Shown: in pieces, positions 8,781-28,748 of the stretch
Position numbering within the stretch: position 1 is the first letter of the stretch
Layout of the letters: each line of letters begins with the position of its first letter
NCBI RefSeq assembly: GCF_004116335.1
Contig: NZ_PDKN01000012.1
Span: 1 to 56,675, forward strand
Direction: 5' to 3'
Source: Candidatus Marinarcus aquaticus
GTDB taxonomy: Bacteria; Campylobacterota; Campylobacteria; Campylobacterales; Arcobacteraceae
Length of the DNA: 56,675 nt
Translations under genes and position numbers: made by a program
Notes under the pieces: model-generated
Seen by the model: only the letters and a program-made list of their open reading frames with translations
The model's database searches: none
What the model was told of the DNA's origin: nothing

Positions 8781-8808
8781 ATTAGTATAGCTTTTAAGCT
8801 ATACTAAT
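8781..8808. terminator. Convergent terminator hairpin after ilvD, overlapping the amidase stop
   Basis: ATTAGTATAGCTT (8781-8793) and AAGCTATACTAAT (8796-8808) are perfect 13-bp arms separated by TT. The amidase stop codon (complement of 8799-8801) lies inside the second arm. There is no long T-run, so termination on either strand may be partial. Confidence 0.7.
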
Positions 8809-9230
8809 GCGGGCATAAAATTCTCTAAAAACCATTCTTTGTCAAAATTGGGACAACTTTTAGAGGAGACTTCATAATGAAATAAAATATTCTCTTTTGT
8901 CCAATCATACTGTTGCACCAATGAGTTTAACACCGTTTGCAACGCCTCATACTGGCGGGTTGAAAACTGCTCATTTCCAATTAAACAGATCCCCAAATAG
9001 TCATTATACCCTTTGGCATGAGCTCCTGCTTTGTCCCAGTCTCTTCCCATCTCAATTTGACCGTTCATAAACTCCAAATAGGTGTTGTTTTCAACATGCC
9101 CATTAAGAATGACTAAATGGTAGCCAATGCCATCCCAACCTCTTTGTCTGTGCCACAATTCAATCTCTTGTGCATTTCCAAAATGACTTTCACTGCAATG
9201 AATGATGACTCCCGGATAACTACGTTTCAT
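8799..9230 (-). CDS. T7-lysozyme-type N-acetylmuramoyl-L-alanine amidase (phage endolysin)
   Basis: This 143-residue protein is an Amidase_2/PGRP-fold enzyme cleaving the amide between MurNAc and the stem peptide. Zinc ligands fit the T7 lysozyme pattern: His11 (VIIHCSES), His118 (ILFHYEV) and Cys126 (SKSCPNF), with Tyr37 in GIGYH. It has no signal peptide, so it would need the upstream holin to reach the wall. It is the last gene of the leftward phage-derived operon and overlaps the holin gene by 11 bp. All visible catalytic residues are intact. Confidence 0.88.
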   Translation of the reverse strand: MKRSYPGVIIHCSESHFGNAQEIELWHRQRGWDGIGYHLVILNGHVENNTYLEFMNGQIEMGRDWDKAGAHAKGYNDYLGICLIGNEQFSTRQYEALQTVLNSLVQQYDWTKENILFHYEVSSKSCPNFDKEWFLENFMPALV

Positions 9231-9627
9231 GTTTCTCCTTTTTATTCAAACTCTCAATAAAACCTCCGCCAAAATAGAAAGAGACAATGGCCATCATAAT
9301 CTCCCCAAGCCACATTTTATTGGCAAAATCCAACGCTTTGTGAACATTGTCCATATTCACCCATCCATACAGTGCACCTAATACCCCATTTGCCATGATG
9401 AACAAAAAAACAACGGTAAACATCACTGCTAAATATCGTTGTGCCAATTTAAAAGGCGCATATGCAGAAATAAGCTGCATTTTTGCTCGGGTTTTAACCT
9501 CTATGAGTTTGGCTTGATTTTGCACTTTTTCTTCATCTGAAGTCCATGCTTCATCGATGAGTTCCAAACTTTTTTTAATCACCTCACCGCTTCCAAATAT
9601 GGCAGACAAAACTTCCAACATACTCAC
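9220..9627 (-). CDS. Holin-like membrane protein (3TM/GTA-type)
   Basis: The 135-residue protein has an amphipathic N-terminal region (EVIKKSLELIDEAW), a charged helix to about residue 65, then hydrophobic segments at about 66-90 and 105-125 and a basic-acidic tail. This resembles holins of the three-TM/GTA type encoded next to endolysins. It overlaps the downstream amidase by 11 bp and the upstream coiled-coil protein by 4 bp, giving a lysis-module arrangement. Holin assignment rests on topology and context more than on motif identity. Confidence 0.65.
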   Translation of the reverse strand: MSMLEVLSAIFGSGEVIKKSLELIDEAWTSDEEKVQNQAKLIEVKTRAKMQLISAYAPFKLAQRYLAVMFTVVFLFIMANGVLGALYGWVNMDNVHKALDFANKMWLGEIMMAIVSFYFGGGFIESLNKKEKHET

Positions 9628-9938
9628 TCCTTATATTTTGCTTCGACATAGTTCAAAATACGCGCTACACTCTTATCCAACGTATCAAAGCGACGGTCCA
9701 AATGCTTTTCAAAAAGCTCAAACTCTTTTCTTCGCAAATAGACTTCATCCGCTCTGTGCGTGGTTAAATACTGTTTTTTTTGCGTTTGAAGTTGCACAAT
9801 ATCTTCAGAGTGTTTATCTGCACGTTTAAATAGACCATCAATTTGCTTTTTAAATTCACCGTTTTGATACTTATTCACAGCAAACTGAGCAATCACACCA
9901 CACACAACCACCGCCAAAGATACGTGCCAACTCTCCAT
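9624..9938 (-). CDS. Membrane-anchored coiled-coil protein of the lysis module
   Basis: The start is set at ATG 9938, which follows TTAGGC at suitable spacing; a TTG 24 nt upstream is an alternative. The product (104 residues) has one N-terminal TM (about 5-22) followed by a long charged helix with heptad character and many Asp, Lys and Arg. Such single-pass coiled-coil proteins sit in phage lysis modules, for example as inner-membrane spanin-like components. No specific family is recognised. It lies 8 nt after the tail fibre gene and overlaps the holin gene by 4 bp. Confidence 0.6.
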   Translation of the reverse strand: MESWHVSLAVVVCGVIAQFAVNKYQNGEFKKQIDGLFKRADKHSEDIVQLQTQKKQYLTTHRADEVYLRRKEFELFEKHLDRRFDTLDKSVARILNYVEAKYKE

Positions 9939-9946
9939 ATTTTTGC

Positions 9947-10930
9947 CTAATATTTGATGCAATACATCATTGCGATGTTTCGTGGTCGTGTTTCATTAGC
10001 ACCACTATCATCAATACTTATAGTAAATGATTGACTTGAGTTTGACATTATTACTGTACGACTATCATCATTTTGTTGCATCGTAGGTCTATAGGGTTGT
10101 CCTGATGAAAAACTACCTCCTTTTATAGTGTGCTTATGTGTTCCACTTGAAGTTACCGTACCAGTATGTGTATGATTCTTATTTTCACAATCCTGAAAAC
10201 TTGCAATATCTCTATCAATATCAACACCTCTTTCATTATCCCAACCTCGGACAAACTCGCCTCGTAAATCAGGTAAATTAAATGTAGTAATATCATCCCC
10301 TACTCCATAGGTTGTTCCAATAACGGCAAACAACTCTGCATACTCTTCTCTTGAAACTTCTGCTCCATTACACTCAAAGAAGCCTTCAGGAATCACCGAT
10401 GAAGGGTTAATAAAAATCATTCCCGTAGGTACGGTGAAGTTTTTTAACTCACTTTTAGTTGGTAGGTTTTCCAATTTCTCTTTTAAAGCTTGTGTAAAGT
10501 GTTTTAATTCGCTTGTTTCAGCAATATTACTTAAATCTAATGTTGCTAAATCTGCTTTGTTTTGTTTGATAAAGTTCACAATCTCTTGTAACTCGTCAAG
10601 CGTTGTGTCATCACTTGCAAGTACGGTTTTAATCGCCTCAATTGCACTGCTTGCAATGGTTAACTTCTCATTTAAAACTCTTCCTTGATTTGCACTCAAA
10701 GGGGCACTAGTAAGGGTTGAAACCAAATCATCCACAATATCAGATACATTGACTTTTAATGCCAAGATCTCTTCTAAACCTGTGATTTTAGAAGGTTCAA
10801 TGCTCTCTAAATCAATTCTGTTTTGTTTGACACAAAGGTCAATCTCTTTTAAACTCTCCAGACTTGTATCACTTGATAATAGAAGTCTTACGTTGTCCAC
10901 TAAATTTTCTACAACATTTTCTGTTGCCAT
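9947..10930 (-). CDS. Phage tail-fibre protein with tail-collar domain
   Basis: In this 327-residue protein the N-terminal half is helical and contains two copies of a unit of about 36 residues (SSDTSLESLKEIDLCVKQN, then ASDDTTLDELQEIVNFIKQN), around a phage-fibre motif PLSANQGRVL. The C-terminal half is a tail-collar domain (PF07484-like): a P-E-G-F-F-E-C-NGAEVSREEYAELF block, GDDITTFNLPDLRGEFVRGW, a His-rich NKNHTHTGTV...GTHKHT metal-binding segment and a final R-P-R-N-I-A-M-M-Y-C-I-K-Y. Such proteins form receptor-binding fibres of phages and tailocins. No tail tube, sheath or baseplate gene is nearby. A good ribosome site (AAAGG) precedes the ATG. Confidence 0.88.
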   Translation of the reverse strand: MATENVVENLVDNVRLLLSSDTSLESLKEIDLCVKQNRIDLESIEPSKITGLEEILALKVNVSDIVDDLVSTLTSAPLSANQGRVLNEKLTIASSAIEAIKTVLASDDTTLDELQEIVNFIKQNKADLATLDLSNIAETSELKHFTQALKEKLENLPTKSELKNFTVPTGMIFINPSSVIPEGFFECNGAEVSREEYAELFAVIGTTYGVGDDITTFNLPDLRGEFVRGWDNERGVDIDRDIASFQDCENKNHTHTGTVTSSGTHKHTIKGGSFSSGQPYRPTMQQNDDSRTVIMSNSSQSFTISIDDSGANETRPRNIAMMYCIKY

Positions 10931-10978
10931 GTTTTTTCCTTTTTTATTTTAATCTGTTAAAGCCTTGGGCTCACCATA

Positions 10979-11008
10979 TAAAACGAACACTCAAAGAGAG
11001 TCGTTTTA
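10979..11008. other. Stem-loop between the 52-aa gene and the tail-fibre gene
   Basis: TAAAACGA (10979-10986) and TCGTTTTA (11001-11008) pair perfectly, with a possible inner CTC/GAG extension. No long T-run follows on either strand. It could be an attenuator separating regulatory from structural genes, or an operator. Nothing else is seen in the 146 bp between the two genes. Confidence 0.4.
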
Positions 11009-11076
11009 CGCTTTCAACAGTCAAATTATAAAAGGATTGTTGTGCACAAAAGAGATGTTTTTTTTCAAATTTATCT

Positions 11077-11235
11077 CTAAATTTTTAAGAGCAATTCCAC
11101 CTCCTCCTCTTTAGTAGCACTGCCATTCTTAACCTTTTGTATCAACTTTTTATCAATATAAACCACCTCTTGAACCAATTGGTTCACCTCTTTTTGTTTG
11201 ATCTGTTTTTTTCTTTTTTTATTTTCGGTACTCAT
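11077..11235 (-). CDS. 52-residue charged protein of the phage-derived operon
   Basis: The frame starts at ATG 11235 inside the end of the upstream regulator gene (17-bp overlap) after a near-perfect ribosome site, AGGAGGTGG. It ends at the TAG complementary to 11077-11079. The product begins MSTENKKRKKQIKQ, is rich in Lys, Glu and Val, and looks like a short helical protein, possibly nucleic-acid binding at its basic N-terminus. No family is recognised. The strong ribosome site and translational coupling support a real gene. Confidence 0.6.
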   Translation of the reverse strand: MSTENKKRKKQIKQKEVNQLVQEVVYIDKKLIQKVKNGSATKEEEVELLLKI

Positions 11236-11497
11236 CTTCCACCTCCTGAATTATTTTATAAATCACTCGACGACTCAACTGCATTTCGGTGCTGAAAAAT
11301 TTCACAAATCGTGTTTTTTTATCTTCTATTTGTAACAGTTTCAAGTGTCGTCGTACCATCTCTTTAATGCGATAAGTCTTATGTGCTTTTTTGGGTATTT
11401 TAAGCTCAATGCCTGAAAAACTATCACACACTTTAAATGCCAGCTCTTCCCCTAACTCTTGCACAAGAAGTTCATATGTATTGATTCGAATACTCAT
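11219..11497 (-). CDS. Mor/C-like small HTH regulator
   Basis: This 92-residue protein begins MSIRINTYELLVQELG. An LKIPKK element precedes a helical C-terminal part with a helix-turn-helix-like segment (STEMQLSRRVIYKIIQEVEDE). The order, I-P-K-K beta element then a C-terminal HTH ending in R-x-I-Y-x-I, resembles Mor/C activators of Mu-like phages. It is the first gene of the leftward operon and faces the CI-like repressor across an operator-rich region. AAAAGGAG precedes the ATG. The family call is tentative; an unrelated phage HTH protein is possible. Confidence 0.5.
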   Translation of the reverse strand: MSIRINTYELLVQELGEELAFKVCDSFSGIELKIPKKAHKTYRIKEMVRRHLKLLQIEDKKTRFVKFFSTEMQLSRRVIYKIIQEVEDEYRK

Positions 11498-11545
11498 TTT
11501 TTCTCCTTTTAATGTTTGAACGATTGTATTGCAATTAGCAACATA

Positions 11546-11631
11546 ATTACTAAATGTAATAGTAATATTATTTCTATCAAAGTTCTCTTAAATAGTATTT
11601 TTGTTACTATATATTTTGGTAATATAATTAC
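11546..11631. promoter_or_regulatory. Cluster of TACTA-type palindromic operators
   Basis: There are three inverted repeats in 86 bp of very AT-rich DNA. ATTACTA (11546-11552) and TAGTAAT (11560-11566) are separated by 7 nt. ATAGTA (11592-11597) and TACTAT (11605-11610) are also separated by 7 nt, with the half-sites in the opposite order. GTAAT (11619-11623) and ATTAC (11627-11631) are separated by 3 nt. A further ATTACTA is at 11627-11633. The position between a CI-like repressor and the opposing operon matches a lysogeny switch. Confidence 0.6.
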
Positions 11632-11647
11632 TATACAAGGAGATGGC

Positions 11648-12373
11648 ATGCAATTTAGCAGTAATTTAAAATATTACAGAAACCAAGCAGGGCTTTCACA
11701 AGGCGTATTGGCACAAAAAGTTGAAGCCATCACGGGAAAAAAAACGACCTATGAAAACATCAAATCTTGGGAAAATGGCACCAATGTCAAAATCAGTGAT
11801 ATTTACGCATTAGCAGAGGCTTTAAGTATCCCTGAACAACTCCTTTTTGACAATTCACCACGCACATTAAAAAAAATATCAAAACATCAAACCATTCAAG
11901 CCAATAATGACAACTTTTTATTTGAATCAAGCTCCGAAGAGGACAGTTATATCTTAGAGGTTTACAATGGTGCAGTTGGAGCAGGAAGTGAAGGGGTCAT
12001 TGAAGAAGCAGACAGTAAAAAAATAAGAGTCAGCAAAGCCTTTGTACTGGATGCCAATATCAAACCTGAAAACCTGATGATGTTTAAAGTTGTGGGCGAC
12101 AGCATGGAACCCACTATCAGCATGAACGACTGGGTGATTATAGATATGGCCAATGGAAGAAGTTTCTATGAAGTGGATGGAATTTATCTTATTAATATTG
12201 ATGACACCCTTCAAATCAAACGATTACATTTTCGAGGGAAAAAAGGGATTGATATCATCTCTGATAACGAAAAATTTCCAAAACTCAATAGCTTAAGTGA
12301 TTGCGACAGAGTCACTGTGATTGGAAAACTCTATACACACATCAAGATTGGTTCAGGCTTGGCATTGAAATAA
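11648..12373 (+). CDS. CI-like repressor (XRE HTH plus S24 autopeptidase)
   Basis: The start is placed at ATG 11648 because AAGGAG (11637-11642) precedes it and the XRE helix-turn-helix begins directly (LKYYRNQAGLSQGVLAQ); an upstream frame would add an unconvincing AT-rich extension. The 241-residue product has an N-terminal HTH (about 6-68), a linker, and a C-terminal S24/LexA-like domain. That domain has an Ala-Gly cleavage site (NGAVGAG, about 112-113), catalytic Ser152 (VGDSMEPT) and Lys191 (LQIKRLHF). It should repress the divergent phage-derived operon and undergo RecA-stimulated self-cleavage on DNA damage. All key residues are intact. Confidence 0.9.
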   Translation: MQFSSNLKYYRNQAGLSQGVLAQKVEAITGKKTTYENIKSWENGTNVKISDIYALAEALSIPEQLLFDNSPRTLKKISKHQTIQANNDNFLFESSSEEDSYILEVYNGAVGAGSEGVIEEADSKKIRVSKAFVLDANIKPENLMMFKVVGDSMEPTISMNDWVIIDMANGRSFYEVDGIYLINIDDTLQIKRLHFRGKKGIDIISDNEKFPKLNSLSDCDRVTVIGKLYTHIKIGSGLALK

Positions 12374-25260: not shown

Positions 25261-26919
25261 ATGACCCAAATGAAATGGACTGTTTTCACATCCTCTTTGC
25301 TTTTAAGTGGTATGCTTAGTTCTACCTATGCACAAACAAGTAAAGAAAAATGGGAACCATTCCTAGATGTAGAAGGAAAACTTGGGAGTCACCGACATCT
25401 TGGAGAAGGCAACTTTTTTATCCCTTTAGTGCAAGATAAAGATACTCTTTTATATACCGATATTCGTTACAGACTGGATAATAAAAGCAGCCGTGAAGGC
25501 AACTTTGGTTTGGGCCTTCGGCACATCCTTCCAAGCAGCTGGATTGTGGGTGGTTATACCTATTATGACCGACGTAAAACGCCTTACGACAACTACTTTT
25601 CTCAAATAACTGCAGGGCTGGAAGCCCTCTCAGTGGATTGGGATTTTCGTGCGAATGTATATATTCCTATTGGAACAACAAGCCATTTAGAAGATTCGTT
25701 AAGTTCAGTCGATTTTTCAGGTACATCTATCATGTACTCCCAAGGGGAAGAGCGTTCCATGAAGGGGTATGATGCAGAAATTGGCTACAGATTGCCTATC
25801 TTTGATGCGCAAGAAGAGCAACAAATTCGTCTTTTTGCAGGTGGGTATCGTTTTTATGAAGATGATGTACAAAGTGTTCAAGGCCCAAGAGGAAGAGTGG
25901 AGTTAACCTTTGATGAAGTCCCTTTTTTATGGAAAGGATCACGTTTGACCTTTGGAGCAGAGGTTCAAAGAGACGATGTAAGAGGAAGACAGAGTTTTGC
26001 AAGTTTAAGACTTCGTATCCCTCTTAATTGGGATAAAGAGTACTCTTTGCCTAAAAAAGAGTTAAGCCCCATTGAAAAACGTATGACCACTCCTATAATA
26101 AGAGACGTGGATATTGTCTCTCAAGCAGGAACATTTGGAGCACCTGTGGAGGTAACTACTACTGCAGATGGTAATAAACTCGTATATATAAAACATGATG
26201 AGATTTCAAGTGGAGCTGAGCTTAATACACTCATCCAAAATGCAGGGGAAAATGCTACCATTGTTTTAAATGGTACTTTAACGGGTATCAATAGTCTTTC
26301 AACGATGAAAGATGGGCAAACCATAATTGGAAAAGGCAACATTGATATTACGACACCTGCAGGAAACAAAGTATCTGTTCCCTCACCGGGTGGAAGTATT
26401 AGTGGGCAAGGCGGCTATATCCCTACTTCAGGCTCAAACACATTCTTTCTCATGGGGAATAACACCACTCTTACTGGTATCACAGCTCATATCACTAATA
26501 GTTCAGGAACGGGTACAGCCATTGCTCATATCCATAATGTCAACAACGTTACTATAAAAAACAGTAACTTAACTGTAATATCTTCTCCCATAGAGGTTTC
26601 TTATGTATTCACTGTAAACGATTCTGATAATATCTATATTGGGAATAATACTTTAAAGATGCACAGCGATGGTCCATATGCTTCTTTAATTGGTTTTATA
26701 GGTACGCAAATAAATAACGTCACTATTGAAAATAATGATTATACGATTTCAGGTACAACCGATAAATCAAGAACTTTCTACTTTTACAATGTATCCGTGA
26801 ATAATTTAAATGGTTCAAATAACACCACGAATCAATCTGCAGGCTCTATGGGTACATATAATAATGCGAGTACTATCAATGGAAGTGTGAGTTTCACCAA
26901 TGGGTTTACCGTACAATAG
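25261..26919 (+). CDS. Inverse autotransporter with beta-helix-like passenger (copy 1)
   Basis: This 552-residue surface protein has a signal peptide of about 24 residues (cleaved near STYAQ). An inverse-autotransporter beta-barrel domain follows (about 30-275): EPFLDVEGKLGS, YTDIRYRLDNKSSREGNFGLGLR, GGYTYYDRRKTPY, GYDAEIGYRLPIF and FASLRLRIPL. After a linker (MTTPIIRDVDIVSQAG) the passenger (about 300-552) contains repeated short strands such as TIIGKGNI and NVTIKNSNL, suggesting a right-handed beta-helix, not intimin-type Ig domains. No LysM domain is seen. It would display the passenger on the outer membrane. It is a tandem paralogue of the next gene. Confidence 0.87.
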   Translation: MTQMKWTVFTSSLLLSGMLSSTYAQTSKEKWEPFLDVEGKLGSHRHLGEGNFFIPLVQDKDTLLYTDIRYRLDNKSSREGNFGLGLRHILPSSWIVGGYTYYDRRKTPYDNYFSQITAGLEALSVDWDFRANVYIPIGTTSHLEDSLSSVDFSGTSIMYSQGEERSMKGYDAEIGYRLPIFDAQEEQQIRLFAGGYRFYEDDVQSVQGPRGRVELTFDEVPFLWKGSRLTFGAEVQRDDVRGRQSFASLRLRIPLNWDKEYSLPKKELSPIEKRMTTPIIRDVDIVSQAGTFGAPVEVTTTADGNKLVYIKHDEISSGAELNTLIQNAGENATIVLNGTLTGINSLSTMKDGQTIIGKGNIDITTPAGNKVSVPSPGGSISGQGGYIPTSGSNTFFLMGNNTTLTGITAHITNSSGTGTAIAHIHNVNNVTIKNSNLTVISSPIEVSYVFTVNDSDNIYIGNNTLKMHSDGPYASLIGFIGTQINNVTIENNDYTISGTTDKSRTFYFYNVSVNNLNGSNNTTNQSAGSMGTYNNASTINGSVSFTNGFTVQ

Positions 26920-27080: not shown

Positions 27081-28748
27081 ATGAACAAAAAAAAATGGGC
27101 AATTTTAACATTCTCTTTGCTTTTAGGAAGTACACTCATGGGTGCCCCTACTCATACAAATCAAAAAAAGCAAAAATGGGAACCATTCTTAGATGTAGAA
27201 GGGAAAATGGGCAGTCAACGACACTTAGGTGAAGGGAACTTTTTCATTCCTTTGGTGCAAGATGACAACACCCTTTTATATACCGATATTCGTTACAGAC
27301 TGGACAATAAAAGCAGCCGTGAAGGTAACTTTGGTTTGGGTCTTAGACATATTTTACCCAGTGAGTGGATTATTGGTGGTTACACGTACTATGACAGACG
27401 TAAAACGCCTTACGACAACTATTTTTCTCAAATAACTGCAGGTATGGAAGCCCTCTCAGTGGATTGGGATTTTCGTGCAAACGTCTACATACCAACAGGT
27501 ACCAAAAGCCATCTGGAAGAGTCTTATAGTAGTGTAGCGTTTACCGATGCAGGTATCATGTATGCTCAAGGAGAAGAGCGTTCTATGAAGGGGTATGATG
27601 CAGAGATTGGTTACCGACTTCCTATCTTTGATGCGCAAGAAGAACAACAAATCCGACTTTATGCAGGAGGATTCCGCTTTTACGAAGATGATGTACAAAG
27701 TATTCAAGGGCCACGAGGTCGTCTTGACTTAACTTTCGATGAAGTTCCTTTTTTGTGGGAAGGTTCACGATTGACCTTGGGTGCAGAAGTACAAAGGGAC
27801 GATGTACGAGGTCGACAAAGTTTTGCAAGTTTAAGACTTCGTATTCCTTTAGGAAATCAAAAAGAAAAATCTGCTCCTATTCAAAAGCTGAGTGCCATTG
27901 AAAAACGTATGACCACGCCTATTATTCGTGACGTGGATATTGTCTCTCAAGCAGGTGTTTTTGAAGCGCCCAAAGAAGTTACTACTGATGCCAATGGAAA
28001 CCGTATTAAATTTATAAAAAGCAATTCAACAACAGGTGCAAATTTGACAACAACCATTGAAAGTGCAGGAGAAAACTCTACGGTTGTTTTAAATGGAGAT
28101 TTCAGTGGTGTTGATTCATACACATCACTCAAAGAGGGACAAACTATTATTGGAGGTGGAAGTATGGGTATCACCACTCCAGCGGGAAAAAAAGTCTCTG
28201 TGTTTATTCCCAATGCATCCATAACAGGAAAAGGTGCGTATTTCGGAAATGCGAATACCTTCTTTAATATGGCAAATAACAGCAGTCTTATAGGTATATC
28301 CGCCAACCTCAATCATACCGATCCTGCATCAGGGACGACTATGTTTTTTATGAATGATGTTCATAATGTCACTATCAAAGACAATCACTTCTCTTTGAGT
28401 GCATCAGATGGTACAAATTTTTACATGACTACCATCATTGATTCAACAAATGTTTATATTGGAAACAATACGATGAACATGAACAGTGATGGAGATTTCT
28501 CATATTTTATGAGCGTTTTAGGTCGTCAGAACAAGAATATTACTGTTGAGAAGAATGCTTACAATGTTTCAGGAACGGCCCTTCCCATTAGAACTTTCTA
28601 TGTTTATAGAACAACCATTGAAAACTTAAAAGGTTCAGGCAATACAACTAATCTGAATGCTGCTCAAATGAGAACTTGGGATGCAGATTCAAGTATCATC
28701 AATGGAAGTATCAGTTTTACCAATGGGTTTACAGTAACATTGCCATAA
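27081..28748 (+). CDS. Inverse autotransporter with beta-helix-like passenger (copy 2)
   Basis: The 555-residue paralogue of the preceding gene has a signal peptide of about 21 residues (cleaved near LMGA) and a beta-barrel domain almost identical to copy 1. The same linker follows. The passenger is more diverged but keeps the architecture: GQTIIGGGSM, NVTIKDNHF, STNVYIGNNT, and a shared C-terminal block SFTNGFTV. Barrel conservation with passenger divergence suggests duplication followed by selection on the exposed part. It could be an adhesin or a carbohydrate-binding surface protein. No catalytic residues for polysaccharide lyase activity are obvious. Confidence 0.87.
   Translation: MNKKKWAILTFSLLLGSTLMGAPTHTNQKKQKWEPFLDVEGKMGSQRHLGEGNFFIPLVQDDNTLLYTDIRYRLDNKSSREGNFGLGLRHILPSEWIIGGYTYYDRRKTPYDNYFSQITAGMEALSVDWDFRANVYIPTGTKSHLEESYSSVAFTDAGIMYAQGEERSMKGYDAEIGYRLPIFDAQEEQQIRLYAGGFRFYEDDVQSIQGPRGRLDLTFDEVPFLWEGSRLTLGAEVQRDDVRGRQSFASLRLRIPLGNQKEKSAPIQKLSAIEKRMTTPIIRDVDIVSQAGVFEAPKEVTTDANGNRIKFIKSNSTTGANLTTTIESAGENSTVVLNGDFSGVDSYTSLKEGQTIIGGGSMGITTPAGKKVSVFIPNASITGKGAYFGNANTFFNMANNSSLIGISANLNHTDPASGTTMFFMNDVHNVTIKDNHFSLSASDGTNFYMTTIIDSTNVYIGNNTMNMNSDGDFSYFMSVLGRQNKNITVEKNAYNVSGTALPIRTFYVYRTTIENLKGSGNTTNLNAAQMRTWDADSSIINGSISFTNGFTVTLP

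Follow-up and report, generated by a model that had tools for sequence, protein, structure and literature searches.

The window analyzed here is a 56,675-nucleotide stretch of contig NZ_PDKN01000012.1 from Candidatus Marinarcus aquaticus (Arcobacteraceae), and at positions 8799-12373 it contains a 3.6 kb island of seven ORFs located between ilvD and htrA (ORF calls with Pfam and PHROGs annotation). The repressor gene is read rightward, and the genes for the Mor-like regulator (mor), p52, the fibre, the coiled-coil protein, the holin-like protein and the amidase are all read leftward. The amidase, holin-type, coiled-coil and fibre ORFs overlap end to start, mor overlaps p52 as well, and all of the ORFs are intact, both in the window and in the copies of relatives. 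The genes and features are as follows.

8799..9230, minus strand: T7-lysozyme-type N-acetylmuramoyl-L-alanine amidase (endolysin); Pfam Amidase_2 6e-13, PHROG 822 3e-27
9220..9627, minus strand: holin-like membrane protein, PHROG 9646 (2e-27), with a weak match to a holin PHROG
9624..9938, minus strand: membrane-anchored coiled-coil protein of the lysis module, with an N-terminal transmembrane segment
9947..10930, minus strand: collar-domain tail fibre or receptor-binding protein, 327 aa; Collar 2e-21, Phage_fiber_rpt 5e-7
11025..11071, minus strand: late promoter, with TATAAT at 11025-11030 and an upstream activator-site block at 11042-11071 (six-leader alignment)
11077..11235, minus strand: p52, a 52-aa basic protein kept in all five known cassettes, its start overlapping the end of mor
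11219..11497, minus strand: Mor-like transcriptional activator, 92 aa; PHROG 836 (late transcriptional activator) 2.5e-6, Pfam Mor 21.1 bits
11547..11633, no strand assigned: operator/promoter region with TAGTAA/TTACTA half-sites at 11547, 11560, 11604 and 11628 (shuffle test)
11648..12373, plus strand: CI-like S24 repressor, predicted to be self-cleaving; Pfam Peptidase_S24 4e-17 and HTH_3

Neither an integrase nor a transposase was seen inside the island on inspection of its ORFs with Pfam and PHROGs, the fibre is the only virion gene that these two collections recognize there, and no scar or repeats were found at the island boundary. The profile matches agree in most respects with an earlier sequence-only reading, which had described seven ORFs between ilvD and htrA, an S24 CI-like repressor (S24 and HTH domains, divergent from mor) facing a leftward operon, a collar tail fibre in that operon (Collar plus Phage_fiber_rpt), a T7-type amidase with a holin-like and an anchored coiled-coil protein (Amidase_2, PHROG 9646 and a transmembrane segment), overlapping frames with intact catalytic residues, and no integrase, transposase or virion gene beyond the fibre. 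Its call of a Mor-like regulator fared less evenly, as the match to PHROG 836 agrees with it but the Pfam Mor score of the 92-aa protein falls below the curated cut-off of 24.9 bits and the AlphaFold model gives no fold match.

The repressor start is placed at ATG 11648, which is preceded by GGAG and is where the homologues begin, and the TTG at 11516 was discarded. Across genera the repressor retains 86-91% amino acid identity in the comparison of selection, and a protein search of 104 genomes of the family recovered it at 86-88% in the same five carriers. Its self-cleavage motifs, namely the Ala-Gly site (VGAGSEG), the Ser (GDSMEP) and the Lys (QIKRL), are invariant in the carriers. The gene is adjacent to, and divergent from, mor, and the gap between the two holds three to four half-sites in every cassette (against a shuffle mean of about 0.3; p about 5e-4 in four and 4e-3 in one), laid out alike. 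In the window, four half-sites lie within 150 bp versus a shuffle mean of 0.29 (p about 5e-4). We infer that the repressor is a damage-sensitive switch, cleaved with the help of RecA, over the lysis and fibre genes, and both the gene set and the intact self-cleavage motif fit the damage-type control that had been proposed from the sequence.

Membership of the 92-aa regulator in the Mor family is weakly indicated. Its profile recovered neither AlpA nor any other regulator from the PDB (one chance match, E 0.59), and among 399 genomes sampled from the order no other match to the protein was found outside the cassette carriers. Alignment of six late leaders upstream of the fibre shows a nearly invariant block followed by TATAAT. 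With three mismatches allowed, genome-wide searches of the five carriers recovered this block from their cassettes and from nowhere else; G080, with two fibres, has one copy for each, and there were no matches either in a reversed-pattern control or in G085. No further regulon members were recovered by the late-promoter search, and hence the cassette looks like a self-contained regulon. The late promoter is presumably the target to which the Mor-like protein would bind, and the simplest reading of the control region is a private two-step switch in which the repressor governs the Mor-like activator and the activator governs the fibre and lysis genes. Also conserved in the late leader (window 10940-11020, minus strand) is an inverted repeat, TAAAAC...GTTTTA, which together with a second small hairpin ahead of the fibre start may act in attenuation or antitermination. 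An RNA switch in this leader was considered and rejected, with weak support from one covarying pair and no Rfam family.

The fibre is the promoter-proximal late gene, and its repeats, which also occur in fibres of Campylobacter phages, are conserved while the C-terminal tips are swapped between species. The collar-type tip is found in the window genome, G069, G082 and one of the two G080 fibres, the G054 tip differs from it, and the second G080 fibre has a C-type-lectin tip like that of Mtd. This second fibre (L010:14466-15959) has an Mtd second domain and a C-terminus resembling the variable region of retroelement-diversified fibres; a diversity-generating retroelement behind it was rejected, as the template copy was not found in that genome. 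No second fibre copy was found elsewhere in the window genome. The N-terminal length of the fibre varies so widely among its phage relatives that length does not decide whether the tail-attachment domain is truncated.

When aligned to T7 lysozyme (1lba) the amidase keeps the His, Tyr, His, Lys and Cys ligand and catalytic positions. In G080 and G082, which belong to one genus, it is replaced by an unrelated endolysin of PHROG 181; the slot is thus kept while its occupant is swapped, which suggests that lysis, and not the amidase protein, is under selection. The PHROG 9646 protein has hydrophobic segments at residues 66-84 and 106-124 and is termed holin-like on the basis of its PHROG membership and neighbourhood. 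The coiled-coil protein, whose start is most likely at 9938, is a candidate i-spanin-like protein or holin accessory, and no outer spanin or lipoprotein partner for it was found in the cassette.

A protein search with the holin-like protein recovered high-identity matches in 5 of 104 family genomes (the window genome, G054, G069, G080 and G082), representing five species in three genera, and all five have the whole cassette in the same orientation at the same ilvD-htrA site. Its recurrence at this site in four other genomes rules out chance. Throughout the family the usual order is ilvD-htrA-response regulator, and in 36 of 40 inspected genomes the ilvD-htrA gap is short (about 65-195 bp); of the other four, three have unrelated ordinary chromosomal genes in the gap and one has no htrA downstream. 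A prophage at the same locus in relatives is rejected by these same contents of the gap. Both the cassette and any scar are missing from close relatives of two carriers (G068 for G069, G083 for G080) and from the same-genus G085. Given this patchy presence and the cleanly empty closest relatives, any benefit is conditional. G070 has a distant holin-like copy, and the contig that carries it also matches a phage portal and, weakly, a tape measure.

Between genera, the identity at 4-fold-degenerate sites is 0.22-0.68 for the cassette versus 0.29-0.64 for ilvD and htrA, so that synonymous divergence about equals that of the flanking genes or is saturated. The proteins are conserved, and in the repressor, mor, coiled-coil, holin and amidase genes dN is much smaller than dS. 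From the synonymous divergence and the conserved proteins it follows that the cassette is old and that purifying selection has kept it in these lineages for roughly the time since the genera split. On the same synonymous divergence, we reject a recent horizontal transfer from genus to genus. Within genus g16 (G082 L013 versus G080 L010) the 4-fold sites are 0.82-0.95 identical in the mor-fibre-lysis part, 0.58 in the repressor and 0.64-0.72 in the flanks; the first of these is closer between the two genomes than the flanks are, which points to exchange of parts by local recombination.

Every gene of the island is of a phage type and the site is empty in most relatives, as would be expected were this the last end of a decaying and functionless prophage, but the same stripped set at the same site in three genera, with intact ORFs, strong purifying selection, a conserved promoter and operators, and neither integrase nor boundary scar or repeats, makes such debris very improbable. 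The sequence-only reading had named, as the mark of ordinary debris, relatives with these genes only in full prophages and a decaying copy here. Comparison of the ilvD-htrA interval across the family instead gave the stripped cassette at the same site in relatives, all intact, and the per-gene dN/dS gave purifying selection in the non-fibre genes.

As to origin, environmental phages frequently carry members of the holin-like family (59 IMG/VR loci), and the holin-like gene adjoins an endolysin gene in the podophage CRP-143 and in Marinomonas phage P12026, which carries HK97-type head and tail genes, and lies near one in L008. A relative of the coiled-coil protein, 55% identical, lies between a fibre and a putative endolysin in L144, a contig of siphophage type whose tail tip is of the J type. 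Close viral relatives of the repressor and the Mor-like protein were not found in the collections searched. The cassette therefore resembles the late end of marine tailed phages such as P12026 and L144, where fibre, membrane coiled-coil, holin-like and endolysin genes are neighbours, but it differs from them in joining this module straight to a repressor/activator pair and in lacking everything else. The island has no MuA/MuB transposase or Mu virion genes, and Baseplate_J and sheath are absent genome-wide. Of the suggestion that this is a trimmed Mu-like prophage kept under selection, the trimming and the selection are supported, but the Mu-like ancestry is not, as the relatives of the holin-type and coiled-coil proteins are of siphophage and podophage type. 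Gene transfer agent genes (capsid, portal, terminase) are likewise absent from the island, and a genome-wide scan for portals of the HK97 type found none.

The fibre could in principle arm a tail made elsewhere, by a tailocin, a resident phage or an infecting helper phage, as its tips are swapped and duplicated like those of phages and tailocins and as Baseplate_J and a tape measure occur in G082 on an element of their own. Genomes were scanned with five profiles, Phage_sheath_1, Baseplate_J, PhageMin_Tail, Phage-tail_3 and Phage_portal (HK97), which cover the canonical sheath, baseplate, tail-tip and portal families and one tape-measure family. None of the five was found in the window genome (a 20-contig draft rated 99.98% complete), G054 or G069, and G080 gave a single sub-threshold PhageMin_Tail match; in the window genome, PF04984, PF04865, PF10145 and PF13550 have no match in the profile scan, and the five profiles reveal no contractile-tail, baseplate, tape-measure, tail-tip or HK97-portal gene. 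As the late-promoter block also occurs nowhere beyond the cassettes, we regard the arming of a tail from elsewhere, which the sequence-only reading had allowed, as quite unlikely. Only two genomes of the family have Phage_sheath_1 matches (G043:C344:5245-7896, with two adjacent sheath-like matches, and G022:C6:148732-149214).

The closest known arrangements differ in instructive ways. R/F-type pyocin clusters contain a CI-like repressor and an activator (PrtR/PrtN) together with a fibre with variable tips. They also carry holin and endolysin lysis genes (PMC8609362). The island resembles them in bringing together repressor, activator, fibre with variable tips and lysis genes, but its cluster lacks tail tube, sheath, tape measure and baseplate, and none was found in the genome. 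In Pseudomonas aeruginosa, AlpR self-cleaves after DNA damage, which leads to production of AlpA and to cell lysis by alpBCDE, and a prophage origin has been inferred for this system (PMC7969949). Like alpR-alpA-alpBCDE, the island is a phage-derived chromosomal cassette with a repressor predicted to be self-cleaving and damage-sensitive, a small putative positive regulator and, outside any prophage, a dedicated lysis operon with holin-type genes. Unlike alp, it pairs a Mor-like regulator with an endolysin of its own and with a single tail fibre or two, and the search for its late promoter found no further operon; AlpA is an antiterminator, and no AlpA homologue was recovered with the profile of the cassette regulator. 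As its activator does not match AlpA, the cassette is not a member of alp by descent on present evidence, and judged by its anatomy it would work like alp. Recruitment of phage lysis cassettes for matrix and vesicle formation has been reviewed (PMC8987985), and a literature search of partial coverage found no tail-less fibre-plus-lysis cassette.

We propose that the island is probably a lysis cassette that has been domesticated, is self-contained and is switched by DNA damage, and that it also encodes a receptor-binding fibre. That it is an old, selected and self-contained lysis-and-fibre cassette is well supported by the comparisons above, and that lysis is induced by damage is likely. In an undamaged cell, the CI-like repressor would occupy the operators in the gap that separates its gene from mor. 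Upon DNA damage, active RecA would promote self-cleavage of the repressor at Ala-Gly, and with its loss the Mor-like activator and p52 would be made. The activator would then fire the cassette-specific late promoter, giving first the fibre and then the membrane coiled-coil protein, the holin and the endolysin, and the cell would burst and release the fibre and its contents. Against this proposal stand the score of the Mor-like protein below the Pfam cut-off, the assignment of the holin by PHROG membership and gene neighbourhood, the patchy presence of the cassette and the fact that a fibre is needless for lysis alone. Released public goods or DNA are a possible role.

In another reading, which we hold as tentative and somewhat doubtful, only a fibre and a lysis kit were kept as a particle-free phage weapon or shield, with damaged or infected cells bursting so that free fibre acts on neighbours. 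Free fibres would then block phage receptors, bind competitors or mis-target phages, and their tips would evolve like those of phage fibres. A related and unlikely reading is an anti-phage suicide cassette, in which lysis would be set off early, ahead of phage maturation, by an anti-repressor from the phage or by DNA damage that it causes, and the freed fibre would coat receptors of sister cells or mis-target phage particles that incorporate it. The repressor, the lysis kit and a receptor-binding protein with a changing tip, made from the promoter-proximal late gene, suit defence, and patchiness among close relatives is typical of defence loci, but PADLOC gives weak matches in generic domains only, none convincing, the flanks are ilvD and htrA and not a defence island, and no precedent for free fibres in defence was found.

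Phage tails, capsids and lysis cassettes that bacteria have domesticated are already known. What is unusual about the damage-switched cassette proposed here is the conservation of a fast-changing receptor-binding fibre with lysis genes and a private switch but without a tail, and if free fibres function, they would represent a new use of phage parts. The cassette also suggests damage-triggered programmed lysis in Campylobacterota, which are not known to have a LexA-type SOS system. Elsewhere in the window, two neighbouring ORFs at 25261-26919 and 27081-28748, encoding 552 and 555 aa, have closely similar N-termini, an apparent tandem duplication.
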